A stretch of 24,847 bases of DNA from positions 79,159 through 104,005 of the forward strand of contig NW_003153251.1 in NCBI RefSeq assembly GCF_000003605.2. The letters run 5' to 3'. The notes beneath the pieces are model-generated. The model was not told the origin of the DNA, did no database searches, and saw only the letters and a list, made by a program, of their open reading frames with translations. The stretch is from Saccoglossus kowalevskii. Taxonomy: Eukaryota; Hemichordata; Enteropneusta; Harrimaniidae. Positions 920-24,847 of the stretch are shown here, in pieces (position 1 is the stretch's first letter; every line of letters starts with the position of its first letter). A program made the position numbers and the translations under genes.

Positions 920-1048
920 GCGAGAAGATCACCAGCTTCGTGAGACTCGTACACGTCGCAATGGTGCAGTGGTTTAGCAGGGTACTCGCCAGCAGCCTCG
1001 CATATGGCTTCGTGGAACTGAAATTGCAAAATGTGACTCACGAAGTAC
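920..1048 (-). CDS. ACE: ACE-like exon 11, last exon in window
   Basis: Forty-two codons with a split Arg codon at the start (R518); acceptor CAACTGTAG|GTAC, donor CTCGC|GTGAGT, phase 2 out. It encodes [20 protein letters not shown] and ends [17 protein letters not shown], matching [19 protein letters not shown]...LHQCDIY. Y519 matches catalytic Y523 of testis ACE. The C-terminal 60 or so residues of an M2 domain are still missing and I see no exon for them in 1-919. Confidence 0.92.
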
Positions 1049-4000
1049 CTACAGTTGAAAAACATACATACTTAATAATTAGACGACACGATAAGACGAC
1101 ACTTATGACTCGTTTGCGACTTTTTCGCGAGATTCCCGAGTCCATTGAGTTGTCCACGCGACTATCACGCGCCAAGACGACCTGGCGAGAATAGCATTCA
1201 TAGCTCTTTGTGGTTTTGTTCGCTTATGTGATACAAGTAGACCACTTTTCCGGGAGTCAAAGATACCGCGTTTTAGTTGTATGCGCGCCCGCCAAAACAT
1301 GCACGCGTGATATTGTGCTTCAGAATGTACCAATCGACGCCACAAAAATATAATTCCCTTCTATCGAATATCACTGAGCAAACTGACATGTTTGTATTTT
1401 CCGCCATAACAAAGCAGGCGTATTCTGCACCCCAGTCTTGCTACTTTCGGGAAAGTGGTCCGTAGAAAGTGAAATCTTGCAGCAAGTTACATCCAACATA
1501 CTGTGTCTGAGAAGGAGGTTTTAGTTTTCGGCGTTCGAAACTCTTACTAATTTTTAGTTTAGTTCGCCGTCGACTCTTTTCATTGGTTGCGTTTAGTTGC
1601 TTGTGCACGATTAGTAAACACTTCATAAAACATACCACAACACAACACGACATGGCATGACGCAATAAATACTAGTAGTAACCAAAATTCGTAAACAACG
1701 ACACTAACCTGATGTAGGGAACGTCGGCCGGAACGTGGTATTTTGCGCCAGCATCAAAATCACCCGCCAAATCGGAACGTTTGACTGGCTCCACCACACC
1801 CTGAATACCAGTTCTGAAACAACCGGGCACATGACGTATTTGTTAAATAACAACTTCATGATGATGACGTCAGTCAAGACAATTCCGCGAAAAATTAAAA
1901 GTTGAATAAATCAAAGACGCAATGGGCGCCGAAATCCCGCTGAGAGCGAGAGAGCGACGAGACTTGTTTTGCACCTTGAATGGTGTTCCTTTTTTCAGTC
2001 ATCGCGTCTTCTATTTGTCTGGTATATGTTCATTCTCCTTCCCAGAGTTCCTTGCGGTTAGATCACCGAAAGTATCTCTGCCACCACACACCGCCATTTT
2101 ACTTTTACTACGCCTATTTGTCTCACCTCATATGCCACCACCTTTCATTATAGTTGTATTCAGTAATGGTGCCGTCAAAGATTTCCCATCTCCAGAGGTC
2201 AATGAGTAAACCGAAAGGCAGGAAAGCTACTTTCTGCAAAGCCATCGACATCAGGTAATTCAGATCCGACTCTAGAGAAATGAAATGAGGACATGGTTTG
2301 TTATTTTCCGTCCCAAAGTTAGGAGCAAATATACACACTAAACACATTCAACAATCTTAACGCGAACATGAAAGGGAGTGTTCCACATTCCCTGTAATAT
2401 AGCGTCCAATATTCGAAATATGATGGTTAATTAACCCATGCTAAGGGAGATGCTACTAGTATTTCGTTTTGTGTGCATTTCAATCATGATTGAGAGAAAT
2501 TAGCGAAATATGGGAGTGGTAGTAACGGAAAGCATGTGTAGAGTGGGCTTTTTTTCGAGACACGACCAAGGGGACCCGTTTATCTGTGCAACAGTCAAAG
2601 TCATCATCTTTGTTCATATGAGACTCGTGTCCCGCACATGCTTGGCGCGACGACCACCACCCTAGAATTTTGTTTGGAAGTCTTCAAAAAATAATACGTT
2701 ATTCCTACCCCGAAAAATGATTCGCAAAGAAAATTGAGCCATACATTCGTGCCTTTGAAAACCACTTTAATTACAAGTTTGAAAACTTCAATGACTGGAT
2801 TTCACCTGATTTGTACCTTGGATGTATTGTTAACATCGTTGGTTCACTTGGCTCAGTAAGGAAACGCGGTGTCTAACAGGCTTGCATCCGAATGTGCCAG
2901 ATTAGATTTTTAGGAGATTTAATTAAAATATGTACCAGGCCAAATACAATGTCCAAGGAGGCTCGGGTGCATTTGATTGTCACTCGCTTGAACACTTCCT
3001 TGTTGCATCTCTTGTTATCGCCTTTATTTATTATTCAAACATTATATTAAAGCGGAGGAGTCGTCACCTACGCATGCGCCAGGTGGCCATAGCGTGTCAT
3101 TGTTTACAAACAAGCGTCTACCCATGAGCCTTTGCGTTCATAGCGTGTGTTATCGTCGCTTGGGATTCAATTCTCGCGCATGCGCAGGTGACAACCCTTC
3201 CGCATTAATATGTAGTTACTTGTTGTTCCAAATATGCAAATTATTGTGATGTGACAGACTCCAATATGTCACTTGCCAGCATCATTTGCTGGTTAATTCT
3301 TTAAGACTGGTTGTTCTGAAGCCTTACTAAGCCGAGAAAACTAACTACTCCTAAAGGTTCTTGCCATTTGTAACAGAAGAAACTAGACCGAGAACATGTT
3401 ACAGTGGACGGGAAACTTTCAATTGGATGCTTGTGATGTACTACTATACGGAGGAACTCTGACGTCATAGTCACAGCCTTCCCGTTACCTATTTTCAACA
3501 ACGTGACTTGATGGCTGAATAATTCTACCGCATAGTAAAAACAATATCACACAACAATTCCTCAATATTGATGAAGCGACCGACCTACCCTGATCTTGGA
3601 CAAGTTCCGGTAGTAAACCAACCTCGTAGAGATGTTCCGGTGTCTGGACAGACAGAGATATGGTGTCACCGAGCGCCTCGTGGAAGCCATTGTTGGCGCC
3701 ATCGCGGTATTCAACGGGCTGTGGTGCGTATTGGTAGTAATACTGAGTGTGTCCCATCTCGTGATGAATGGTGATCAAATCCTCGTGATTTACACGTGTA
3801 CACATCTTGATTCTGTCAAATATGCCGGGAAAAATTAGACCTAGCGACCGATGACGTGACGTCATTTAATGCGGTAAGGTGCCAAGATGAACTCGGTCAA
3901 ATATGGTGAATACAATGCGCATGCGCATACAATGGTCTAATTAGTGTGGACAACCTCGTTTTGAAAAACACTAGCGCGCGCATTGCATAAATAAATACGA

Positions 4001-7000
4001 TTCGCGGCGCTAAACTTCTTAGGTTGTGGTTCGTTTTAGATTTTATTATCGACGAATCGTATGCGCAGATGAGATGGGACACACTACTACCAAGTGACGT
4101 ACCATTATACTTCCGTACCTTTATGGTAACCATCTGAATAGGTTGTGCACTCTCAGCCCCGTGACCAGACTCAAATTTTAGAAACGACGCCCACATTTGC
4201 GAAAGGACCCCAAATTATAAGTCGATATTCCACTAGGAGTTGACCAAACATCAAGTCAGGGCAACATAGATTGTTTTTTGTTGTCTAACGTTAACATTTA
4301 GCAACTCAAAATTTTCACCAAAATTTCAACCAAATATCCTCGGGGGCGGAGCTACGTCACAGACGTTCCACGTTGCTAAGACGCGCACCACTGTACCATG
4401 CATTTCTATGGGCTCTGTGCGCGCTGCTGTGGAACGCCGGTCGAGCCGGTGAAAATTCGAGAAAACGACACAAACTCAACTTTGAAGTAATCCATAACAA
4501 TCAAATTTATATATGTTACACACGTAGGGCTAATCTTGTTGCACTGTTCAGAGGAGTCTCAACAATCACCCCAAAGTACCGTTTTCTGTGAGTTTTGGGC
4601 CTTTGTTTTCACCGCCGTGGGTTGCCAGGCGGTGAAAATGCCCGGATGTCCGCCCCCGAGGATTGAGTTATTGGCGACCTATGGTAGATTTTTTAATCTC
4701 TTTGTGACCACCCGGTATGATTGTCTGTTTCAACCTTTGATCTTAGTCATTTGTGAAAGCTTAAACTAAAAAAAATCTAGATTGCCTGTAACTGTTTTCT
4801 CTAATCTGTTAGTTGAATATCAAATTGTAATATTGTGTGGTTTCGCAGAAGAGGGTGTGGTTCCTAAAACTACGCAAAGGGTTGCAATAACATTGTAACT
4901 AGAAATAACTGGATTTCTATTAAAATGCATGCTGTATCCTTGGCAACAAGCTCACCTTGATCTTGGACAAGTTCCGGTAATAAACCGACTTCGTAGAGAT
5001 GTTCCGGTGTCTGGACAGACAGAGATATGGTGTCACCGAGCGCCTCGTGGAAGCCATTGTTGGCGCCATCGCGGTATTCAACGGGCTGTGGTGCGTATTG
5101 GTAGAAGTACTGAGTGTGCCCCATCTCGTGATGAATGGTGATCAAATCCTCGTGATTTACACGTGTACACATCTTGATTCTGTCAAATATGACAGACGAG
5201 TTTAGATGCATGAATGCACAACTACAGCCGAGGACAGAATAACGTGTATATGCGTGTACGCTGAAATTCCGGATACGCGTTTCGAATGACGTCACTAGGC
5301 AATACGTTACGACGACGTTCGATTGGGAGGAACAAATGAGTGCACGAAAACTAATATAGTGGCATTTCAATGTATTCTCAAGGACATCGCGCGTTCCAGG
5401 GAATACACTTCTCCAAGATATAAAACAAATCACCGAAAATCAGAGAAACGTAAGGCAGTTTGGGTTTACCCAAGCGTTTTTCTAATTTCATGCGCGCAAT
5501 TTGAATTATTGTACAATGTGTAGACAACGCGCGCGTGCGTGGCAATCGTTTCAATAGTCGGAACAACCATGCGATTCTGTCCTCGAGTGTAACGTGCTAA
5601 ATGGTTTTTGCAGATGACACGTGGTACAGGATGATGGTACAATGTGGTTTACACTATGGAATTGTAAAGGTAATGTACATTTAATAATATCCGAGGTCTA
5701 TAAACATGAACTTGAATATACAGTGAAAGTCATGAATCTAAGAATGTTTTAAACCTTTTATAAATATATATTTGTAAAAATCAAAATGACTGGTAGAATT
5801 CAAATTGACCAATCCAGAAACGATATGACGACATCATCGGGAGTTCTATTTAATATTAATGAGTTAGTTCAACATCACCAATTAGCAAGTTATACATTTT
5901 GAATAAGTGCGCAGTCGCAGTTGCTACGTCACTTGCAGGTTTGCGCGCGCATTATGGACGCGGACTATGTGAAGCTCTCGGGCCAAATTGGAAGCTGATG
6001 ATCGGTAATTACAAATTGTTTAAAAATATTTTTATAAACCAAATACTGCTTTCACAGTGCTGAACGGTTTTAGTGTTTTGATGACATCCAGTATTTGAAA
6101 CAGCCCAAAGAAGGGTCATAGGTTACAATGATGACGCATAGTCGGGTGCGTATAACGATGTTCAAACCACTCAAGTCATTGGGAAAACGACAAAGAATGT
6201 GATGTCGTCCGAACCACCCAAGTCATTAAGAAAACGAAAAATGATGTGATGACGTCATCTTCAGGAAGTAAGGCTATAAGAAAGGCATAGTTACAGACGT
6301 CTGGCGTGGCGACGTTAATAACACCGTGAGTTTTTTAAACATGTATGTTTTAACAGTAAATATACAACAAATCATCTTGAACATATAGGAAGCAAGTGTA
6401 CAGATAAGGGATTGACCATTGACAATTTTGAGTGTGTATGATGGAAAAAAAATAATGCAGGGAACAATAACAAAATACTGTATGCCTAAATCTTGGTGAA
6501 AAAAACATTCTACGAAGTGTAAAAATAACTTATACTAGCATTATGGGGAAATAGCATAACACTATTTGAAGAAAACAATTATTAGATGGAAGACAAATAT
6601 TTCCGATAATATTTATCACACTAGTACTTTTGCTTAACCCAATCTTTCTGACGTCATAACAATGCATTGTGGGTATATCAATATTTAATACCTGAAATCT
6701 TTCCTGTTGAAAAAATCCCACGCTGAAGCATGGCACGTGACCTCTCGTCCATCATCTGGTTTTTCAAACATGGAATCCTCCCAGAAACTCTGTGGCGATG
6801 GAATCAATCCCATGGATACAAAGAAATCTTCTGATAGTTGGAACATCTGCAGAGCATCGTAACCCTGTAAAATACACAGTTCATATAAATGCGCCCTCTA
6901 GCGACTAATCGTATCGGTAAAACGATTCATAAGTGCGCCCTCTGGCGAAAAATTGCAACGGTAACGCTCAGTTGGCTGGTTTCCGCCTCAGGTGTCATGG

Positions 7001-10000
7001 CGAACCAAGCCACAAGAGGCCGGTAACGAGTAATGAATCCGGCATTCTGATTGGTCAATCACTTTCTTGTTCCTTGTTATATTTCCCTTGGTTACCTGAC
7101 GTCAGCGTTTACGCTCGTGGCCCGAGACCATGGGTTTCCTTTTCCTCTCGAAAGTTGGGTTTCTTTTGTTATAAATTTGCACAGAAACAACGAGAAATGC
7201 CAGAAACATCTCAAATATGCAAGTCTGGGCAGACAGAATGTATGAGCATGGCTTTATTGTAGTATTATAGACACGTTTACGCAAAGCGAAACTTGGAATG
7301 TTTTCAAATTATGTAACACAGTCACGTGCGGAAAACCGGCCCAGTGGAACAATATGGCGATTACCAGTTACCTGCGTTCTACTTGCCATTCGCAGGGAAC
7401 GCCGGGAACCAGCGAATAACGTAGAAGAAATAAAACGATTCATAAGTGCGCCCTCAGTATAAGGAAATAACATTTCCTAAACTACAGGATTAGTGTAATT
7501 CTCTTCCCATTTTGAAGTATTTTTTCTATGACGTTATATGTGCTTGCTGTGTTTGATTAAATTGGGTTATATCGCCCTCTATGGTTGAATTGTGTAAATA
7601 TTTGGGCAGATGTGAATAAATAGTTCTCTTAAATGTTTAAGCCTTGCGTAAGGTGATTTTTTTATTTACTTAAAACAGCTCACAAACTTTGCAGATTTAA
7701 TCAATTCGTCAACAGTTGTATTGGTGGTAAACACGCTGACCAGAACATTATTTTAAGCCTCAGTTACCATTTTTAGATTTTCACTGAACTCGACTGTGGG
7801 GCGAAGTTCAGAATACGATTTTCCTTCAGGCGCTTCAGAGCACACTGAATGTCTGTGTTGTGTATTTGTGACCGAACTATGAACAAACGTATTTAAAGTT
7901 TCTGAACGAGTCTATATTATCACGAACACTTACCTGGTTAATTAATTCGTCTGTAACATCAATGGATGAAGCATTAGGGAATGGTAACACGATGTCGCTG
8001 ATACTCATCCAATCCTGTGCCCACATATTACCTACAAAAAGAAATAATAATGTCAGAAGATGGTTTACATTGACTATTAAGGTAGAATCCTACTCATCCG
8101 GTTAATTTAAGGATATTGACTTAAAACAAAGTTGGGGTCATCTGATTAATTTCCCCAAAAATGATGTTTTTATTTTAGTGAATAATGGCATTTCGGCAAT
8201 GTTATAGTGTTTTACCATGGGTTGCTATGGCAGCGATATTATACCATATCTCAAATTGTAGCCTGGTGACATATTGTCAATGATGGGGTACTTTTTGTTT
8301 CCCTCAATTATTTCAAAACACTGGGTTTTAAAAAGTGCCAAAAAATGCAATTTTTCTTTAACACTGTGTTCTATGGAATTGTTCTAAAAATAGCATTTTT
8401 TGCAAAATAATAGGACAAGTTACCCAAAATACGTCACTGTAACACACAAAAGAATGCTAAGTCGGTTTCGCGTGGGCGCGGCCAATCAGAATTGGCGTAA
8501 CTTACCGTAATGAAATAAAACAAAATGGCGGGTTGTCGAACCAAGGTATTCTCGGACCTACTTCAAAGAAAGTTCTATGCTGCTAAGACGCGCACCACTG
8601 TACCAAACTTATTTTCTTAGACTTAGAGACTTAGAAGTTCTGTATGGCATCAGATTAGTTTTGGCGGTACCACTTTCGCGGATGCCCTGCGGTGTTTGGT
8701 GCTGGTGGTTGTTTCGGCAAAGCGCGATGCCATACAGACATATTTGTTCACTTATTGATTAATAAGCTATATTTAACACCGATTTGTATTAACTTTCATA
8801 TTCATTTCTTTAGTTATTTATCAATTTGGTTAGTTAATCTTCATATTAATATACTTATTTTTGGCCCTCTACTATATACGTTATAATTTACTTCCAATGT
8901 ATATAGGAAATCAGACTAGACTAGCAGTAAGCTATTTTCTGATTTCCTTTTTACCCAATATATATGTGTATTTTTCTTACCATTTGTTTTTTTGTATGGC
9001 TTACTTTTTTTTGCTTTGTTTTGTTTTTTCAGTGTTTCTTATTGTTATTATTATTATTATTGGGTAAATAAATAAATATTGTATATTATATTATGTATTT
9101 CTATGGGCTCTGTGTGAGCTGTTGAGGAACGCCAGTCGTAGAGCCGGTGAAAACAGCAAAAGTCGAGGAAGACAGCACAAACTCAACTTTAATTTGAAGC
9201 AATCCTGAGCAATAGAATGTATATATGTAATCTTCTTCCAACGTTCGGATTTGTTTTAATATCAGTACATCAGCCAGTAAAAGGCCACAAATTGTTCTGA
9301 CATTCCGTGACATGACCTCTAACTTTGACAGATACTTAATATATTACTATTAAATTTACTCACCGGTGATGTGTGCCGGGATGGCTCCGGTTAAACTAAC
9401 GTGTTCTGTTCCATAAACCCCGCTCAACTTTCTTCGTACGTATGCATGTAACTGCTCGTACATAGGCAACACTTCGTCCCACAGTCTCATTACTTCAGCC
9501 TCGAAATCTTCCATTTCATACCAGGATCGCCAGAAGGCACCCATGTCCGGTTGGTCTAGAGACGATGAGACAATAAATCATAATGTAGTTATTAGGTATA
9601 ATACTTAACAGACCTTTGAAGCAAATGACTGCCGAAATCTCGCCGAGATCTCGGCGGCCATTTGCGTGAAGCATTAGCCCCAAGTTACATTCCAACATAA
9701 TAATGACTCACAGAGCAAAACTCCAAATCCAGAGATGACGTCATCATTGTTCACCTCTCAGCAAACCACATGAAGATATCGAACTCGCAATATTTTAATT
9801 GTTGTCGTCAAAGAAACCAATGCTCCAATAAAGTGAACGAGATCATCACATCTTTTGAAACCTGAGACAACATCGGCGAGAAACCTACCACCTGATTCAA
9901 GTCAGTGACGTCGTACAACGTCAATAACTCTTAATCTAAGAGTGCATTCCAATGAGTGAATAGAAAGTGACAAATTAAATTCCAGGGCATCAAATAATAG

Positions 10001-13000
10001 TGAAAGTTCAAAACAGTTGATTTCAATAATTGATTTAATTGGAATGATTTTGTGAATAAAATCATGAATGTAGGCACCTTTATGTAGCTAGTTGCATTTA
10101 CTCCAAGACAAGTACATTATTTTCAAGTTAAGTTGTAAGTTGGATGTAGCACGCAGCCACGTATGTACATTAAACCCAGTCGAAAAGTTGAAATGACCGC
10201 CAACCTTAATTCATCTGCTATTCATTGGTGAGATGTTCACTTTAGAAGTTTTTAAATTATTATCAGCGAATAACGGTGGGCGAATATGATGTGGGTCTAT
10301 TAACACAAAATTCGAAAGCGTGCAGCAGGACGACTACTAGTATAATGCTTTAAATGGCCACACGCGTAATGTTGAAACGAGCTGTTCCATTGGCTAATTC
10401 ACATATACCGTTGAAACGAGCTGTTTTATTGGCTAATTCTTAATTATCGTTGAACAGATCTGCTTCATTTGATACTTTACATATACAATTAAATAGAGCT
10501 GCTCCATCGGCTAATTCACATATATCGTTGAAACGAGCTGTTTTATTGGCCAATTCATACTTACCGTTGAAACAAGTTGCTTCATTGGCTAATTCACACT
10601 TACCGTTCAGAAGAGCTGCTTCGTTGGATAATTCAACATATCTCGGGTACATTGGTTTCATGGGAGGACCACATGTATCACGCCATCCTTCCCATGCCCA
10701 TACCAGTTCACTCCAGTTGCGACTATTGGCCATTACGTCATACAGATCTGTTCGATAGCACACACATACAAAATAGTTTACTTATGCTATTCCATATGAT
10801 GTACAATTGCCCAATGTATCATTTGCATTAAACACAATATCAACGTTCAATGGCGGTGGTCGTCGCGATGCGTCCTGTTCGATATGGGACTCATAGCGAC
10901 GTACACGACACGTGTAAAATACGTTGTTTGTTTATATGAAATTTGAAGAGGCGCTGCGCGACTACCACCACCCCTTCATCAATGTCTCAAAGCGTATAAA
11001 ATAATGTAATACTATAACATTTGATCATTTTTCATTTAAGGGATATCCGTTTCGACTGTTTCAGTAATTTATACGTTCACGATCATCGCAGCGTTATTGC
11101 GTAAGTTTGCAACACTAAACATCACATGTGGTGTAGTTATCGTGATGGTTATTATATAATTATTTGGTTGCTTTGATTGCAGCTCGTTGGTGAAGTGGGC
11201 AATAAGTGGGCACCGATAAACTGTGCGATTCGGACGATGGTCTGTCTGTAATCTAGGCAAGGCAAGTGGCGTATTTGATGACTTGAGTGTACTAATTTGT
11301 GTAATGCCAAGATCAGGAAAATCATCGGTTTGAAAGATCTTAGATTGCAAATGGCCGCCGACATCTCGTTGAGCGCGAGAGCGCCACGACTCGTGATTTT
11401 GTCCCAGAAATACTAGTACTATAGAATTTCAGTCTCCCCGTCATCCCGTCTGCTTTTATATTGAATTGTGTATCCGATCACAGTCCCTCAGGACTGTGCA
11501 TGGTATTTGGAGCATTATTCAAGAGGGAAAAACAAGTATCGTGGCTCTCTCGCGAGATCTTGGTGTACTGCACGCTGTGCCCGAAATCCCATTGTTAATG
11601 TGTGGTATACCGTACAATACCGTTTGTTCTCGGTGTAGTTTACATAGTTCATAAACGCTTTACGAGCTGGTTACCGCGACTTGATGACGTCATAAACGCA
11701 ATTACACGCATGCGCACCGGTACCAGACACCCATGCACGGTGGACTGTTCGCATTCGACACTGGAACCAGTACTAACCTGGGTCCAATGGGTAACATGCA
11801 TCTGGATTTGGATCCCCTGGTTTGTCACATACCTCACCAGTGTTGTAAATAGCCGACATGTCAGCAACTATTTGGTTAAACTAGAAAGTAGTTCAACATT
11901 AGTAGCTCCATTATACAACATACCACAGGCTTTAGAGAATGGGGTTAAACACTTTTCCTTTGATATTATGTAGCATGTAATTTGATATACATTGAAAATG
12001 CTACTTAAGTCAAGTTTTGAGAAAAGCATCACGTGTTATCTTTGAATTGAAAATTAAGTTATGTTCGCCATACTTTCTATACTTTCTATGAGCTCATGCC
12101 ACCGGGATACCGAAAATGAAAAAAATGAGGTCACCAGACATTTTTAGAGATAAAAAATAGAGTCCGAATGGTCATGAAAACTAGTCAACATTATCATTTT
12201 GACACTGGTTTCTAAAACCAAAAGGTTTTATTCATGGAATGAAATTGTCATTTTTGACATGAATAATATTTTGGAAATATTTCAAAAATCGACATATAAT
12301 TTAGTTATTTTTTACTGCCATAGTAGTTGTTTTCTATAATATACATTGTATACGGCTCAAAACGCCCCAACTTACCTCATCGAACTTTTCATCATCCAGC
12401 GCCGCTGCACCGATATAGATGAGGTTCTCTAATCGTCTGTTTGTATCAAATGTGAAATCAGTTCTGTCGAATACCAAAGCACACGTTCGCATGTCCCTGT
12501 CAAAACCACCAGCGACGGATATAGCATCTAACTGATAGAAAAGAAAATAGCACGATATTAAAGCGCAGGGGGTAGTCACCTGCGCACGCGCGGGAATCGA
12601 ATCCCAAACAACAATAACAAGGCATGCTGAAACGCAAATGCTCATGGGTAGACGCTTGTTTGTAAACAATGACACCCTATGGCCACCTGACGCATGCGCA
12701 GGTGACGACTCCCCGCTTTAAGCCTAGTCTGAGTTAATGATAAGGTGAAAAGATGTATCGCTATATCACGATAAAACAGCTGCTGATGTTGAGTAGTTTA
12801 CTCAACATACGTGTGTGCGTACATGATCTGTTTTTTTTTACAGCGACTCAACAAACCCCCTCTACCATATTGTAATAGACATTTCACGATTGCTACACTT
12901 TAGATGTGAACAAATGTTAGAAAATAATTAACGAATTTACATATTTGCAACTTAAATATATTCAAAAATAGACAAATAGTATAATCAATGTTATGCAGCG

Positions 13001-13984
13001 TTAAAGATATGATTTGAATATACTTTTGAATATACCGTCGTTGGTAGCTGCATGCGCATATTCAAACTGCCATACGTTAATTAATTAAATGTTTTGGATT
13101 CGTTAAAAACGCGAAACTTTCACGAATTTTGGAGTGTAAAATAAGTGGTCAAAACTACAAAAACTATACATAGTTAAATCTGATATAATTTATCTGGAAT
13201 ACACTTGGCCATCATTCACGGCGGTGGAATATTGTAAAATCAATACGACTACAAAATAAAACAATTTATTCGAAAATAGATCAAAAAATAGCATATAGAC
13301 TATATTTAGTTGTACGAAAACGGTTTCTGAACTTGTTTGGAAGTCATTTGCGCTTCTTAGTGAATTGTAATTAAGAATAATCTTCATCAACTTTATCGCT
13401 ATTAATTACGTCCAAGGTTGGTTGGTAGATCGGTCAGACCAATCACAGAGAAGCTTGTTTGTTGACAGTTTTTTTTTCGACGAATTAAATTCCGCCTTGT
13501 ATAAATGGTTCGACTCAACTGTAACTGTATTGTAACCCCGGTCTACCTATGTTACGTTGAAGCAAAAAAACTATTGTCATTACTCATCGCGATAAAGTAT
13601 CGACAATATGCAATCATATAAAAAGTCGAAAAAAAACCATGTGCACTCTGAAATGTGCAAGGACGACAGACGATAAAAAAATATTTTCTTATATGTATTC
13701 TGTCTGTACCTGCCTACCAACTTCTTACAAGATAAAATTCACGAAAAGAATTCATTTATTACGTAACTCACCATCACTTGTTGGTTGTACTCGGTGATGT
13801 TAGTCTCATAGTCCCAAGACGCACTAATGGCGGTTGAGTAAATGATCTCTGCATTGGGGTTGTACGTATTATTCAACCAGAGCACGGCCTTAGATTCGTC
13901 TGCAACCGACCCAGCGGGTGCACCGCAGTCTATTTGCGCACGCACAGCGACCAGGGCTGCGCTGAAAAGCAGTAGATAACGCAT
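920..13984 (-). CDS. ACE: Angiotensin-converting enzyme-like M2 metallopeptidase, partial gene
   Basis: The gene span has 12 recognisable coding exons, two of them alternatives, giving 560 residues; the C-terminus lies off the left edge. Family knowledge: M2 peptidases remove C-terminal dipeptides outside the cell using zinc. Seen: a signal peptide (residues 1-16), HEMGH with zinc ligands H377 and H381, base E378, and third ligand E405 in FHEALGD, 24 residues after H381 as in testis ACE. Also seen are H347/A348 (CHASAW), K507, H509, Y516 and Y519, with R518 at the position of the chloride-linked Arg of testis ACE. Q275 in MWAQ matches ACE Q281, whereas ACE2 has Arg there, so dipeptidyl carboxypeptidase activity is expected. 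Cysteines pairing as in ACE are C346/C364 and C534/C548. Sequons occur at N38 and N62. All exon phases agree. Only one M2 domain is visible; a second domain or a membrane anchor could lie beyond the window. Confidence 0.95.
1049..1708 (-). other. Intron 10 of the ACE-like gene
   Basis: A 660-bp intron with GTTAGT donor and CAACTGTAG acceptor. I see no repeat or conserved element in it. Short ORFs on both strands have no family resemblance. Confidence 0.8.
1709..1813 (-). CDS. ACE: ACE-like exon 10 ([10 protein letters not shown] active-site segment)
   Basis: Thirty-four codons with split codons at both ends; acceptor TTGTTTCAG|AAC, donor ATCAG|GTTAGT. It encodes [20 protein letters not shown] and [15 protein letters not shown]507, H509 and Y516 correspond to testis ACE K511, H513 and Y520, which hold the substrate C-terminus. 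The exon was placed by homology and phase. Confidence 0.93.
1921..1975. mobile_element. Family C MITE end, solo copy C1
   Basis: GGGCGCCGAAATCCCGCTGA followed by GAGCGAGAGAGCGACGAGAC matches the left ends of the fuller family C copies at 11351, 15965 and 23809. I do not see the opposite terminal repeat, so the copy is truncated or diverged. It lies in the intron between exons 9 and 10. Confidence 0.6.
2127..2271 (-). CDS. ACE: ACE-like exon 9
   Basis: Forty-seven codons with split codons on both sides; acceptor ATTTCTCTAG|AG, donor ATGAG|GTGAGA. It encodes [20 protein letters not shown], then [13 protein letters not shown] and ending WWHM. This is the ACE [20 protein letters not shown]...DQWRWGVFSG segment. 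Its phase fits either exon 8a or exon 8b upstream. Confidence 0.94.
2593..2665. mobile_element. Family B MITE fragment B3
   Basis: The stretch from CAAAGTCATCATCTTTGTTC to GGCGCGACGACCACCACCCT matches the right-hand end of the family B copies at 18041-18310 and 23018-23650. The left end is not clear. Confidence 0.6.
3047..3208 (+). mobile_element. Family A MITE copy A1 (TTAA ends)
   Basis: A 162-bp element bounded by TTAA on both sides, with inverted termini (TTAAAGCGGAGGAGTCGTCA left; AGGTGACAACCCTTCCGCAT right). It shares the core TGTTTACAAACAAGCGTCTA with the copies at 12558, 14584, 16517 and 18648. TTAA at both ends is the target signature of piggyBac-type transposases; that affiliation is an inference. 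Confidence 0.85.
3589..3812 (-). CDS. ACE: ACE-like exon 8b (duplicate zinc-site exon, Tyr form)
   Basis: This second copy of the zinc-site exon is also 224 bp and intact, with acceptor ATATTTGACAG|AATC and donor CAGG|GTAGGT. The product equals that of 8a except TQYYYQY in place of TQYFYQY; human ACE has Tyr here. Six of the seven base differences are silent. Homology to the 8a flank extends about 12 bp past the acceptor and does not continue past the donor. Using both copies would shift the frame (phase 1 out, phase 2 required), so it can only replace 8a. It may instead be a silent spare copy; transcript data would decide. Confidence 0.85.
3813..4955 (-). other. Intron between the duplicate exons 8a and 8b
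   Basis: A 1143-bp interval containing a complete family D MITE (4336-4663), a perfect TGCGCATGCGCA palindrome (3916-3927) and a TGACGTCA site (3857-3864). It is far too long for steric splice exclusion. Confidence 0.75.
4336..4663. mobile_element. Family D MITE copy D1, complete
   Basis: Perfect 15-bp terminal inverted repeats (ATCCTCGGGGGCGGA and its complement) bound a 328-bp element. A subterminal inverted pair, CGTTCCAC near 4369 and GTGGAACG near 4430, gives a long hairpin. Related copies lie at 21757-22060 and, split, at 8571-9225. Confidence 0.85.
4956..5179 (-). CDS. ACE: ACE-like exon 8a (zinc-site exon, Phe form)
   Basis: A 224-bp exon, phase 2 in and phase 1 out; acceptor ATATTTGACAG|AATC, donor CAAG|GTGAGC. 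It encodes [21 protein letters not shown], then [22 protein letters not shown] and [16 protein letters not shown]. Zinc ligands H377, H381 and E405 and base E378 are intact. It is the first of two near-identical copies in transcript order and joins in frame from exon 7 and to exon 9. It differs from copy 8b at 7 of 224 bases, and only F385/Y385 is a residue change. Phe at this position also occurs in Drosophila AnCE. Confidence 0.92.
5180..6691 (-). other. Intron 7 of the ACE-like gene
   Basis: A 1.5-kb intron containing a two-copy 47-bp tandem repeat (6161-6254) and TGACGTCA sites at 5287, 6250 and 6649. I see no MITE and no gene. Confidence 0.75.
6161..6254. repeat. 47-bp tandem duplication
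   Basis: Two adjacent 47-bp units (6161-6207 and 6208-6254) share the pattern AACCAC-CAAGTCATT--GAAAACGA then TGTGATG, with a handful of substitutions. Confidence 0.85.
6692..6864 (-). CDS. ACE: ACE-like exon 7 (CHASAWDF active-site strand)
   Basis: Fifty-seven codons plus two bases; acceptor TATTTTACAG|GGT, donor TTCAG|GTATTA, phase 2 out. It encodes [20 protein letters not shown] followed by [18 protein letters not shown], nearly identical to [28 protein letters not shown]347 and A348 line the substrate cleft. C346 pairs with C364 in the next exon in known ACE structures. Confidence 0.95.
6865..7933 (-). other. Intron 6 of the ACE-like gene
   Basis: A 1.07-kb intron containing a 25-bp perfect direct repeat (6918-6942 and 7431-7455) and a TGACGTCA site at 7097. 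No gene is seen; the 109-residue forward ORF here has no family features. Confidence 0.7.
6918..7455. repeat. Segment flanked by 25-bp direct repeats
   Basis: An identical 25-bp stretch beginning TAAAACGATTCATAAGTGCG and ending in the recurrent GCGCCCTC motif occurs at 6918-6942 and 7431-7455. The roughly 490 bp between them could be an insertion or a duplication inside a dispersed repeat. Confidence 0.7.
7934..8031 (-). CDS. ACE: ACE-like exon 6 (MWAQ substrate-binding segment)
   Basis: Thirty-two codons after a split Gly codon; acceptor TTTTTGTAG|GT, donor CAG|GTAAGT, phase 0 out. It encodes [18 protein letters not shown] and then [14 protein letters not shown], matching ACE DMWAQSWENIYDMVVPFP. 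Q275 (the Q of MWAQ) is the position that binds the substrate C-terminal carboxylate in ACE; ACE2-type carboxypeptidases have Arg there. Confidence 0.93.
8571..9225. mobile_element. Family D MITE copy D3, split by an insertion
   Basis: GCTAAGACGCGCACCACTGT up to 8605 matches D1. The match resumes at about 9093 with ATGTATTTCTATGGGCTCTG and runs to about 9225. The distal terminal repeat is not visible. The two halves are contiguous in D1 and D2, so 8606-9092 is an insertion. Confidence 0.75.
8606..9092. mobile_element. About 487-bp AT-rich insertion inside MITE D3
   Basis: This segment interrupts family D. Near its left side it carries a 13-bp perfect inverted repeat (TCTGTATGGCATC at 8639-8651, complement at 8726-8738) around a GC-richer loop. 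It is then strongly AT-rich and ends with TTATTATTATTATTATTGGG and TAAATAAATAAATATT runs. The family is not recognised; a retroelement tail is possible. Confidence 0.5.
9364..9555 (-). CDS. ACE: ACE-like exon 5
   Basis: Sixty-three codons plus split codons at both ends (phase 1 in, phase 1 out); acceptor TCGTCTCTAG|AC, donor ACCG|GTGAGT. It encodes [15 protein letters not shown], then [14 protein letters not shown] and GAIPAHIT, matching ACE AYWRSWY, LHAFVRRALHRRYG and [19 protein letters not shown] leads into the MWAQ motif of the next exon. Confidence 0.92.
9556..10603 (-). other. Intron 4 of the ACE-like gene
   Basis: A 1.05-kb intron beginning inside the 39-bp tandem array. It also holds a collapsed family C hairpin (9621-9665) and a TGACGTCA at 9736. 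The rest is unremarkable. Confidence 0.75.
9621..9665. mobile_element. Family C remnant C2: bare terminal-repeat hairpin
   Basis: Two 22-bp arms (GCAAATGACTGCCGAAATCT onward; mirrored in GATCTCGGCGGCCATTTGC) with three mismatches and a single-base spacer. The arms equal the family C termini (TGGCCGCCGAGATC), so the element has lost its whole interior or is a precursor palindrome. Confidence 0.65.
10368..10640 (-). repeat. Seven-unit 39-bp tandem repeat spanning the exon 4 end and donor
   Basis: Seven units of exactly 39 bp start at 10368, 10407, 10446, 10485, 10524, 10563 and 10602. The unit at 10602 is the coding tail of exon 4 ([11 protein letters not shown] on the minus strand), and the other six extend into the intron. 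Donor-like dinucleotides at the unit borders are GTAAGT at 10603 (exon 4 donor), GTAAGT at 10564, GTATAT at 10486 and GTATAT at 10408; the GT is lost at 10525 and 10447. The minus-strand frame stays open until a stop at 10440-10442, so each added unit is 13 residues. The array is best read as an exon tail that expanded as a minisatellite. Confidence 0.93.
10604..10747 (-). CDS. ACE: ACE-like exon 4 (end lies in a tandem array)
   Basis: The exon encodes [20 protein letters not shown] and continues to [10 protein letters not shown], the ACE LLFAWEGW...ALSNEA segment. The acceptor is ATCGAACAG|AT and the proximal donor is AACG|GTAAGT. Its last 37 bases are part of the first unit of a 39-bp tandem repeat that continues into the intron. 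A second near-consensus donor lies 39 bp further on (see repeat entry), so an alternative form ending at 10565 and adding [13 protein letters not shown] is possible. The proximal donor gives the length expected of the family. Confidence 0.88.
10850..10976. mobile_element. Compact family B MITE copy B4
   Basis: Inverted termini GGCGGTGGTCGTCGCG on the left and CGCGACTACCACCACCCC on the right bound about 127 bp. The interior retains the TTGTTTATATGA stretch of family B. Confidence 0.65.
11351..11563. mobile_element. Family C MITE copy C3
   Basis: Left end ATGGCCGCCGACATCTCGTT with GAGCGCGAGAGCGCCACGAC; right end GTGGCTCTCTCGCGAGATCT. About 213 bp. The internal segment CATGGTATTTGGAG is shared with the copy at 15965. 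Confidence 0.7.
11778..11880 (-). CDS. ACE: ACE-like exon 3
   Basis: Thirty-four codons plus one base; acceptor TACTTTCTAG|TTT, donor CAG|GTTAGT. It encodes [18 protein letters not shown] and then a loop ending YPLDP, matching the MSRIYSTAKVC...LDPDL segment of ACE. The two cysteines (C141, C152) correspond to the first ACE disulfide, but the loop between them is slightly longer than in the human protein. The exon is too short to stand out as an ORF and was found by splice-phase continuity. Confidence 0.88.
11881..12375 (-). other. Intron 2 of the ACE-like gene
   Basis: A 495-bp AT-rich intron; nothing beyond its splice sites was recognised. Confidence 0.8.
12376..12531 (-). CDS. ACE: ACE-like exon 2
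   Basis: Fifty-two codons, phase 0 on both sides. The acceptor is TTTTCTATCAG|TTA and the donor is GAG|GTAAGT. The product ([17 protein letters not shown]) aligns with the FTDPQLRRIIGAVRTLG helix of human ACE, so exon 1 joins directly to this exon. A family A MITE ends only 26 bp upstream of the exon's 5' edge. Confidence 0.88.
12558..12721 (-). mobile_element. Family A MITE copy A2, next to the exon 2 acceptor
   Basis: TTAA-bounded, 164 bp, in reverse orientation to A1. Left end TTAAAGCGCAGGGGGTAGTC; right end GCAGGTGACGACTCCCCGCT. It shares the AGACGCTTGTTTGTAAACAA core. Its edge lies 26 bp upstream of exon 2. Confidence 0.88.
13431..13530 (+). repeat. Repeat pair G, copy 1
   Basis: The pattern CGGTCAGACCAAT, GAGAAGCTTGTTTGTTGACA, TTTCGACG and CGACTCAACTG is shared in the same order with 15263-15360. 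It is a dispersed repeat of unknown family, ending near the 5' part of intron 1. Confidence 0.6.
13772..13984 (-). CDS. ACE: ACE-like exon 1: start codon and signal peptide
   Basis: Seventy-one codons, phase 0 at the donor (ATG|GTGAGT). The start ATG has A at -3 and lies about 40 bases downstream of a TATA box. Residues 1-16 are a short basic start, a hydrophobic core ([11 protein letters not shown]) and an RA|Q cleavage-like site. The rest ([15 protein letters not shown]) matches the first helix of the M2 domain, where human ACE has ASWAHDTNIT. No other in-frame ATG lies between the TATA box and this start. Confidence 0.9.
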
Positions 13985-14583: not shown

Positions 14584-14737
14584 TTAAAACGGGAGGGTCG
14601 TCCCCTGCGCACGCGCGGAAATTGACGATAACAACACCTCGCTAAAACGCAAAGGTTCATGGGTGGACGCTTTCTTGTAAACAATGACACGCCATGGCCA
14701 TCTGGCGCATGCGCAGGTGACGACTCCCCCGCTTTAA
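14584..14737 (-). mobile_element. Family A MITE copy A3
   Basis: TTAA-bounded, 154 bp. It has GGAGGGTCGTCCCCTGCGCA on the left and GCGCAGGTGACGACTCCCCC on the right, with the CTTGTAAACAATGACACGCC core. It is about 560 bp upstream of the TATA box. Confidence 0.88.
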
Positions 14738-15262
14738 TGAAAGGTGAAGGTTGAAATTTATTTATATGCAAATGTGTTTACGGGTAGGATACAGGTTCAA
14801 GTTTTGCCCGCAATGTATGCATTATCACATATTCATCAGTACACATCAGAATAATAAAACTGAATGATTCATTTACGCTCCCGAGTGTATACTTGTTTTT
14901 CTGTTCCGTTAAAATTTCAACTTTGTCGCAACCTTGTTATCGGATATCCGAATAGTGTAGCGGAGCGGCACGTTCCATGTGAAGTGTTGTTTACGTTTTG
15001 AGTGTGTTTATTACACCTGTATCTTAGTTCAAACGGCCAAACTGATGCGAAATTGTCAGTGATAACCGAAATTATTCCAAAATATTTCGCATATTAATAT
15101 TCATGTTCTTAAAAAATGTGTTTCTTCTTTTTCTTTTGCGAAAAAAAATACCTATTAACGTAATAAATAGCTGCCCATGCCAAGTGTATCGGTACGGTTT
15201 CAACCATCTTCGAATCTTCTTGTAAGATTATGTCTGATTGGCCAGCCAACCCAAACACCAAA
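14738..15262. other. Intergenic, nothing recognised
   Basis: AT-rich sequence without ORFs, repeats or motifs that I can support. Confidence 0.6.
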
Positions 15263-16516: not shown

Positions 16517-16681
16517 TTAAGGCGGGGAAGCCGTCACTTTCGCATGCGTCAGATGGCCATAGCCTGTTGTTGTTTACAAACAAGCGTCTGTCCATGAGCC
16601 TTTGCGTTTTTAGCATCCGTTGTTATCGTCGCTTGGGATTCAATTCACACGCATGCGCAGATGACGACCCCTACACGTTAA
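16517..16681 (+). mobile_element. Family A MITE copy A4
   Basis: TTAA-bounded, 165 bp, same orientation as A1. It has GGCGGGGAAGCCGTCACTTT and CGCAGATGACGACCCC ends and the TGTTTACAAACAAGCGTCTG core. Confidence 0.87.
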
Positions 16682-18647: not shown

Positions 18648-18798
18648 TTAAAGTGGGAGGGTCGCCACCTGCGCACGCGCGGGAATTGAGTTCAAAAGGA
18701 CGCTAAATCGCAGAGGCTCATGGGTAGACGCTTGTTTGTAAACAATGACACGCTATGGCCATTTGACGCATGCGCAGGTAACGACTCACCCGCTTTAA
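18648..18798 (-). mobile_element. Family A MITE copy A5
   Basis: TTAA-bounded, 151 bp. It has AGTGGGAGGGTCGCCACCTG and CGCAGGTAACGACTCACCCG ends and the AGACGCTTGTTTGTAAACAA core. Confidence 0.88.
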
Positions 18799-19307
18799 TG
18801 TCATTGTTCACAAAACCCAGATAAAAATATACTAGTATGGTTACAGAACAACTTTTCGCAAAGGTCACACATCAATGAAAATGTTCATTTTGGGCCAAAT
18901 ACCATTGATTCCCGTAGTGAAAAGTTTTTCAACATCTATCAAGTGTCATTTTGTTGCTTATGGTGGGAACACTATCTGTAGTTATAAGTTGGATACTTGC
19001 GGTTGTCAGGAGATATCAGGACATTCTGGTGACTACGTTTCATTTGCTATGAAATTACGCCTACATGATGGCTCGCGATGGAAATTGTTCCCTAAAAAAT
19101 ATTTCGAACTGTGAAAAAAAGTCAATAAATCAATAATTATGTGATTAATTAATAATTATTACTTTTAAATCAAACGAATGTGGTAATTTTTTGGCCCTTT
19201 GTGAGATCGAACCCCTGCGATCGACTTTGACATTCGGATGCTCTGTGACCTCTGTTGTAATTACTCATCAAATACATGTAGGTGTCATTTGTAAATGCAT
19301 GGACACA
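18799..19307. other. Intergenic, nothing recognised
   Basis: A 79-residue forward ORF (18875-19114) lies here but shows no family features. Confidence 0.5.
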
Positions 19308-24036: not shown

Positions 24037-24436
24037 GTAAAGTCTAACGTCTATTACGACGGTACATCTATTTTGTTTTTGACTTGCTATGGGCGTTATT
24101 CACTTAACAGGGCTGCTACAAAACACATATACACTGTGTCGTGCTAACATATTCTCAACCACGACGCACACATATCTCAACGCAATATTCAGAGTTAGTG
24201 GAATACATGAGGGGCCTATGAAATTGTAAAACTAAATTTGAGACTAAGAGCAGGTCAACACAAAAAGGAAACATATGTATGATGCATTCACGACATTACA
24301 AAGGATTTTTATATTCAAATAATAGTATTTTTAACCATGTGTATGAGTCATTTGATTCTATATATGCTTTACGATTTGTGGTCAGAAATGAAATACAAAA
24401 CACGATTAATGGATTATTGCAGTCACGATTGCCACA
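24037..24436. other. Intergenic, nothing recognised
   Basis: AT-rich sequence leading into the minisatellite; no supported feature. Confidence 0.55.
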
Positions 24437-24847
24437 ACGTACTTTCTTCATGCTACACTGTACTACCACTATAATACACTGCACTTTCTCCATGCTACAC
24501 TGTACTACCCCTATAATACACTGCACTTTCTCCATGCTACACTGTACTACCACTATAATACACTGCACTTTCTCCATGCTACACTGTACTACCACTATAA
24601 TACACTGCACTTTCTCCATGCTACACTGTACTTCCCCTGTACTAAACTGTAGTATCCATATGCTACATTGTACCACCTGTATGCTACACTGTACTACCTT
24701 TATGCTACATTGTACTACCTTCATGTTATACTGTACTACCTTCATGCAGAATTGTACTACCTTCATGCTACAATGTATTCTCTATTCTACAATGTACTCT
24801 CTATTCTACACTGTACTACCCCTGTGCTATACTGTACTACCCATATG
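24437..24847. repeat. 21-bp minisatellite with 42-bp higher-order units
   Basis: Basic unit about ATGCTACACTGTACTACC plus three bases (21 bp). From 24451 five unit starts are exactly 42 bp apart (24451, 24493, 24535, 24577, 24619), each a dimer of two diverged 21-bp units. From about 24660 the period falls to 21 bp, and the array continues past the window edge. As 21 is a multiple of 3, the minus strand stays open as a KVVQCSI-type heptad ORF, which I take to be incidental. Confidence 0.93.

Follow-up and report, generated by a model that had tools for sequence, protein, structure and literature searches.

In this work we analysed 24,847 nucleotides of the hemichordate Saccoglossus kowalevskii (positions 79,159 to 104,005 of contig NW_003153251.1; the whole of this stretch is called the window below), which carry a single-domain ACE gene whose zinc-site exon is present in two almost identical tandem copies, exons 8A and 8B. 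From the sequence we consider it probable that 8A and 8B form a frame-locked pair of mutually exclusive exons that toggles a residue of the S2 subsite: a tandem duplication of exon 8 would have produced two interchangeable zinc-site exons that are used singly, exon 7 being spliced to 8A or to 8B and then to exon 9. Transcripts that contain both copies or neither would stop early and be removed by nonsense-mediated decay, with the reading frame as the lock, and peptide binding at P2 would shift with the exon chosen, the zinc-site motifs being common to both enzymes. The exons concerned are the following.

6692..6864, minus strand: exon 7, ends in phase 2
4956..5179, minus strand: exon 8A, zinc-site exon, ends FHEALGD, Phe variant, matched by ACE structures in PDB
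3589..3812, minus strand: exon 8B, duplicate zinc-site exon, ends FHEALGD, Tyr variant
2127..2271, minus strand: exon 9, starts in phase 1

Both copies are 224 bp long (8A, 5179-4956; 8B, 3812-3589) and they are identical at 217 of these 224 bases (97%), which rules out chance. Both keep HEMGH, FHEALGD and their AG/GT ends intact, entering in phase 2 and leaving in phase 1, and the coordinates, lengths and phases given for them in a preliminary description of this DNA were exact. The differences lie at exon bases 61, 73, 75, 190, 193, 200 and 223; our recount agrees with that description that six are silent, and the seventh replaces Phe by Tyr. With 8A alone or 8B alone the spliced frame is open through exon 11, for 560 codons without a stop. 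When 8A and 8B are joined it runs 7 codons beyond the end of 8A and stops within 8B, ahead of three exon junctions, and when both are skipped it runs 23 codons and stops within the frame-shifted exon 9. The two stops are upstream of further exon junctions, so that by the usual decay rule such messages should be degraded. The pair is thus frame-locked in its sequence, with an early stop when both copies or neither are included. The earlier claim that a transcript must pick one copy holds in the sense that double inclusion and skipping are unproductive; it goes too far if it is taken to mean regulated mutually exclusive splicing, of which the frame rule is not a proof.

One predictor of mutually exclusive exons in the literature relies on similar length, compatible splice sites, the same frame and homology, and its authors found few other exons (90 of 16180) of this appearance on the fly X chromosome (PMC3228551). 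8A and 8B show all these properties: 224 and 224 bp, GT/AG sites, phase 2 to phase 1, 97% identity, and an internal position, flanked by exons 7 and 9. They are not exons of neighbouring gene copies, as a single set of exons 1-7 and 9-11 surrounds the pair; a tandem paralogue sits past the adjacent gap and carries its own exon 8.

The single replacement is unusually well placed. 8A reads HEMGHTQYF and 8B has Tyr instead of the last Phe, and this site aligns with Tyr369 of the N domain of human ACE (nACE) and Phe391 of the C domain (cACE), the residue number being counted from the alignment. This residue belongs to the S2 subsite and is tied to inhibitor selectivity (PMC3875237, PMC5947662, PMC12025037, PMC11880972), a point that was absent from the preliminary description and that we add to it. 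The Y369F mutation of nACE lowers affinity for 33RE 36-fold (PMC3875237), a Tyr hydroxyl at this position would sit only 2 A from a ring of RXPA380 (PMC5947662), and the S2 rows tabulated in PMC12025037 give Phe375 for the fly enzyme AnCE, Phe391 for cACE and Tyr369 for nACE. In a diprolyl series the P2 groups discriminate partly via the S2 residue, and a property away from this site can outweigh it (PMC11880972). Phe is present in the three paralogue exons found (3/3), which suggests that the Tyr of 8B is probably the derived state. A bolder proposal, which we regard as doubtful, is that exon choice would toggle the S2 residue between the human C-domain (Phe) and N-domain (Tyr) states and so reach by splicing some of the dual specificity for which vertebrates duplicated the whole domain, gene conversion keeping the exons alike elsewhere.

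The pattern of substitutions argues for selection on both copies. Over 74 codons the silent divergence (dS) between 8A and 8B is 0.14 and the replacement divergence (dN) is 0.006 (dN/dS 0.04). The probability of finding at most one replacement among seven changes is 0.0005-0.0023 with all changes neutral and 0.004-0.028 with one copy alone neutral since its birth; these ranges cover three values of transition bias and three of the strength of constraint. Purifying selection on both copies, one of the explanations offered in the preliminary description, is therefore supported.

Several observations weigh against two exons used exclusively and to different effect. The 8B donor, AGG/GTAGGT, scores 3.7 and the 8A donor 6.7 with a donor frequency table, by which the donors of exons 7 and 11 score below that of 8B; that 8A is the default exon, given the weaker 8B donor, is a guess. 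The change from Phe to Tyr is a conservative, mild exchange, and 5 of the 74 exon residues are among the subsite differences in the table of PMC12025037, so that a chance hit has a probability of about 7%. Both 8A and 8B have Asp at the partner S2 position (Arg381/Glu403) and therefore match neither the N nor the C domain completely. In bacterial M2 proteins (26 loci, many of them from Sphingomonas) the column of the Phe/Tyr site contains Q 18, F 4, D 3 and Y 1; by variability it is the eleventh of 52 columns, which makes it variable, not extreme. The selection test is weak, as there are seven differences only and alleles would give the same pattern. Finally, a search for competing pairing between the introns, made in one species, gave two reversed comparisons that were not above shuffles and a third that was left unshuffled.

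Some of these observations would fit a redundant duplicate, in which the exons are picked at random, the products are equivalent, the Phe/Tyr difference is without functional weight and the constraint reflects either copy being usable. A single conservative replacement in 74 codons and the variation of this column within the family (the 26 bacterial loci, many from Sphingomonas) are in keeping with it, but the S2 residue is a selectivity determinant by experiment in human ACE, and we consider this explanation unlikely. A copy that is dead or nearly so, that is, a recent duplicate that has not decayed as yet and is omitted by splicing, agrees with the small number of differences (7) and with the weaker 8B donor. 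It would nevertheless predict that 57-69% of the changes be replacements if one copy had been neutral from birth, whereas only 1 of 7 is (P 0.004-0.028), and the splice sites and active-site motifs are intact in both copies; we therefore give it little credence.

For the mutually exclusive pair that we favour, the question is what would keep both copies out of one message. The spacer of 1143 bp makes steric exclusion unlikely, and the 8A and 8B donors do not resemble the U12 consensus. Because the spacer is too long, the ends are GT/AG and no intron pairing stands out, the reading frame combined with decay is the best-supported lock. Where the length of paired exons is not divisible by three, decay may enforce exclusion (PMC6071210). 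Poison-exon control, with double inclusion as a regulated off-switch, is compatible with this explanation, and in the gene model a message with both copies does end inside 8B after 7 further codons, with three junctions still downstream; it leaves unexplained why each copy stays productive alone, and taken as the reason for the pair it seems to us highly improbable.

The resemblance between the two copies ends close to the exon edges. On the acceptor side 12 bp (CATATTTGACAG) are identical in 8A and 8B, followed by 16 matches in 48, and on the donor side nothing beyond the GT is common (22 matches in 58 past it), which bears out the earlier remark that the flanks are unalike beyond about 12 bp. 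This identity of 33-38% is to be compared with about 87% expected from the exon dS of 0.14 if the flanks had been co-duplicated (P about 1e-17 and 4e-18). Local alignments among intron 7 (1512 bp), the spacer (1143 bp) and intron 8 (1317 bp) gave no score above shuffles, the best local match between intron 7 and the spacer being the shared 12-mer itself, and a search for intron homology at the exon edges by anchored extension did no better than shuffles, of which 71/150 and 150/150 reached the observed score. In the species' own assembly (572 Mb) the exon DNA was found at these two places only (2/2 candidates scored), and intron 7, the spacer and intron 8 each have one full-length place, at their own locus (best 40 candidates scored for each). 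The features of these flanks and introns are as follows.

5180..5191, minus strand: 8A acceptor, CATATTTGACAG, identical to the 8B acceptor
3813..3824, minus strand: 8B acceptor, CATATTTGACAG, identical to the 8A acceptor
3813..4955, minus strand: spacer intron between 8A and 8B, 1143 bp, with one full-length place in the assembly, its own
4335..4663, no strand assigned: dispersed element of about 330 bp within the spacer, with 39 other places at 93-98% identity (best 40 of 2219 candidates)
5715..5986, no strand assigned: dispersed element in intron 7, approximate limits
3045..3208, no strand assigned: dispersed element of about 165 bp in intron 8, approximate limits

A haplotype or assembly artefact, with two alleles of one exon placed side by side, had been named in the preliminary description as something that would refute its claim. 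The 3% difference, mostly silent, does resemble the allelic divergence of highly polymorphic animals, and the window is bounded by N runs, but alleles would bring allelic introns, and here the flanks match at 16/48 and 22/58 positions, against about 87% expected, and the introns do not align. No co-duplicated flanking introns and, in the assembly searches (best 40 candidates scored per intron), no haplotig were found, and we reject this explanation as very unlikely. As a separate observation, all three introns around the duplicated exon harbour dispersed elements with many genomic copies, and a dispersed repeat of about 100 bp, its core resembling GCGCATGCG, is present in either orientation at 3039-3138, 12625-12724, 14640-14745, 16517-16628 and 18701-18804.

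Two routes could have led to the pair. Either a copy about the size of the exon was inserted 1.1 kb away, or the duplication is older and gene conversion has since made the exons alike. A third, in which co-duplicated introns decayed later without exchange, is unlikely with an exon silent divergence of just 0.14. Against the exon-sized insertion, the common piece consists of 12 bp before the exon and the GT after it; 12 bp is too short for a branch point, given its usual distance from the acceptor, so the landing site would need to have supplied one. In favour of conversion, which the preliminary description had also offered, there is a stretch of 114 bp in which 8A and 8B do not differ (P about 0.04-0.05); this is only suggestive. 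For other duplicated exons, no conversion is reported in the available text of PMC3236188 and PMC5896119.

The gene that contains the pair lies on the minus strand and occupies eleven exon positions, from the start codon at 13984 to the end of exon 11 at 920, with an AG acceptor at each exon after exon 1 and a GT donor at every exon of the spliced model. The model with 8A matches the Pfam Peptidase_M2 profile PF01401 with 731 bits (E 1.2e-219) over profile positions 2-527 of 581, and the spliced product matches human ACE structures (PDB) over residues 27-558. It belongs to the M2 (ACE) family by its HExxH plus downstream Glu zinc site and by family-wide similarity, both copies having HHEMGH and FHEALGD. 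The remaining exons are listed here.

13772..13984, minus strand: exon 1, with the start codon and an N terminus judged by eye to be signal-peptide-like
12376..12531, minus strand: exon 2, spliced model
11778..11880, minus strand: exon 3, spliced model
10604..10747, minus strand: exon 4, spliced model
9364..9555, minus strand: exon 5, spliced model
7934..8031, minus strand: exon 6, spliced model
1709..1813, minus strand: exon 10, spliced model
920..1048, minus strand: exon 11, last coding exon located in the window

The window, G000:C4306:79159-104005 of the assembly, does not contain the last exon of the gene, as no coding exon was found in it after exon 11. It is flanked by N runs (the one on the low side has 4357 bases), and between this ACE gene and the ACE gene that follows the family search lists nothing that matches the end of the M2 profile. 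Inside the 3' end of exon 4 (at 10604) begins a tandem array of about 7 copies of a 39-bp unit (10371-10645) that extends into intron 4, where it copies the exon edge and the donor; AACGGTAAGT recurs once exactly. This gene has thus had another of its exon edges duplicated, with a possible decoy donor. A 21-bp minisatellite array at 24350-24847 runs up to the N run at the high end of the window, CpG is not depleted in the window as a whole (observed/expected 1.12), and scans of the window for tRNA genes and, at gathering threshold, for Rfam families gave 0 hits each.

The M2 family search of the assembly gave 35 matches (33/33 candidates scored), and of the 14 control genomes one gave a signal, below the cut-off. 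The M2 loci are this gene, the tandem paralogue on the same contig and the same strand, genes on C3898 and C2039 and a fragment on C357.

G000:C4306:57723-72821 (L029:3289-3642), same strand as this ACE gene: tandem ACE paralogue, from the family search

Three other genes were found to have the zinc-site exon, each in a single copy, and these three exons have 63-66% DNA identity to 8A and 8B over 150 bp, with silent sites saturated. The single zinc-site exon of the other genes, together with the two places only in the assembly, shows that the 8A/8B pair arose locally, within a single gene. Apart from this, the mitochondrial COX1 of the same assembly (L081, G000:C4830) has TGA at Trp, one AAA at a Lys position and no AGR, with ATA at positions of conserved Ile, and an ND1-like frame lies near it on the opposite strand.

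This architecture is known and, as far as the literature searched shows, the enzyme family is new for it: in agreement with the preliminary description, we found no report of a duplicated or mutually exclusive exon pair in an ACE-family gene in that literature, which was searched partly by title and abstract start and leaves most subscription papers outside its coverage. The closest parallels are exons Ab and 3 of U2AF1, homologous exons that give stops when both or neither are included, with decay (PMC5224494), and the two homologous exons IIIb and IIIc of FGFR2, a cited case for decay in PMC6071210; unlike 8A and 8B, which are known from sequence alone, these are transcript-proven, and they do not encode an enzyme active site. 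Ketohexokinase is an enzyme with either/or exons, 3A and 3C, of which the C isoform has the greater fructose affinity (PMC6464065), but it is of another enzyme class, whereas the ACE exon holds the catalytic metal site and its copies are one residue apart. Among invertebrates, the cephalochordate G-alpha pairs (preGNAI exon 6, preGNAQ exon 5) also combine local exon duplication with mutually exclusive use (PMC5896119); they belong to a signalling protein, and conversion tests were negative there, whereas none is decisive for 8A and 8B. The Dscam arrays likewise consist of tandem duplicated exons used one at a time, but with dozens of strongly diverged copies between which no gene conversion was found (PMC3236188). 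In human ACE, Phe or Tyr at the same S2 position separates the catalytic sites of the N and C domains (PMC3875237, PMC5947662, PMC12025037, PMC11880972); somatic ACE carries both sites on one chain, whereas in the present gene, with its single domain, the choice would be made by splicing, with Asp as the second S2 residue in both copies.

If the proposed use of the pair is true, alternative exons that swap the metal-binding site of a peptidase would constitute a natural one-residue experiment in ACE specificity, at a residue whose influence on selectivity is familiar from inhibitor design for the human enzyme. The pair also raises the question of how an exon copy with almost no common intron becomes, and remains, a working alternative exon.

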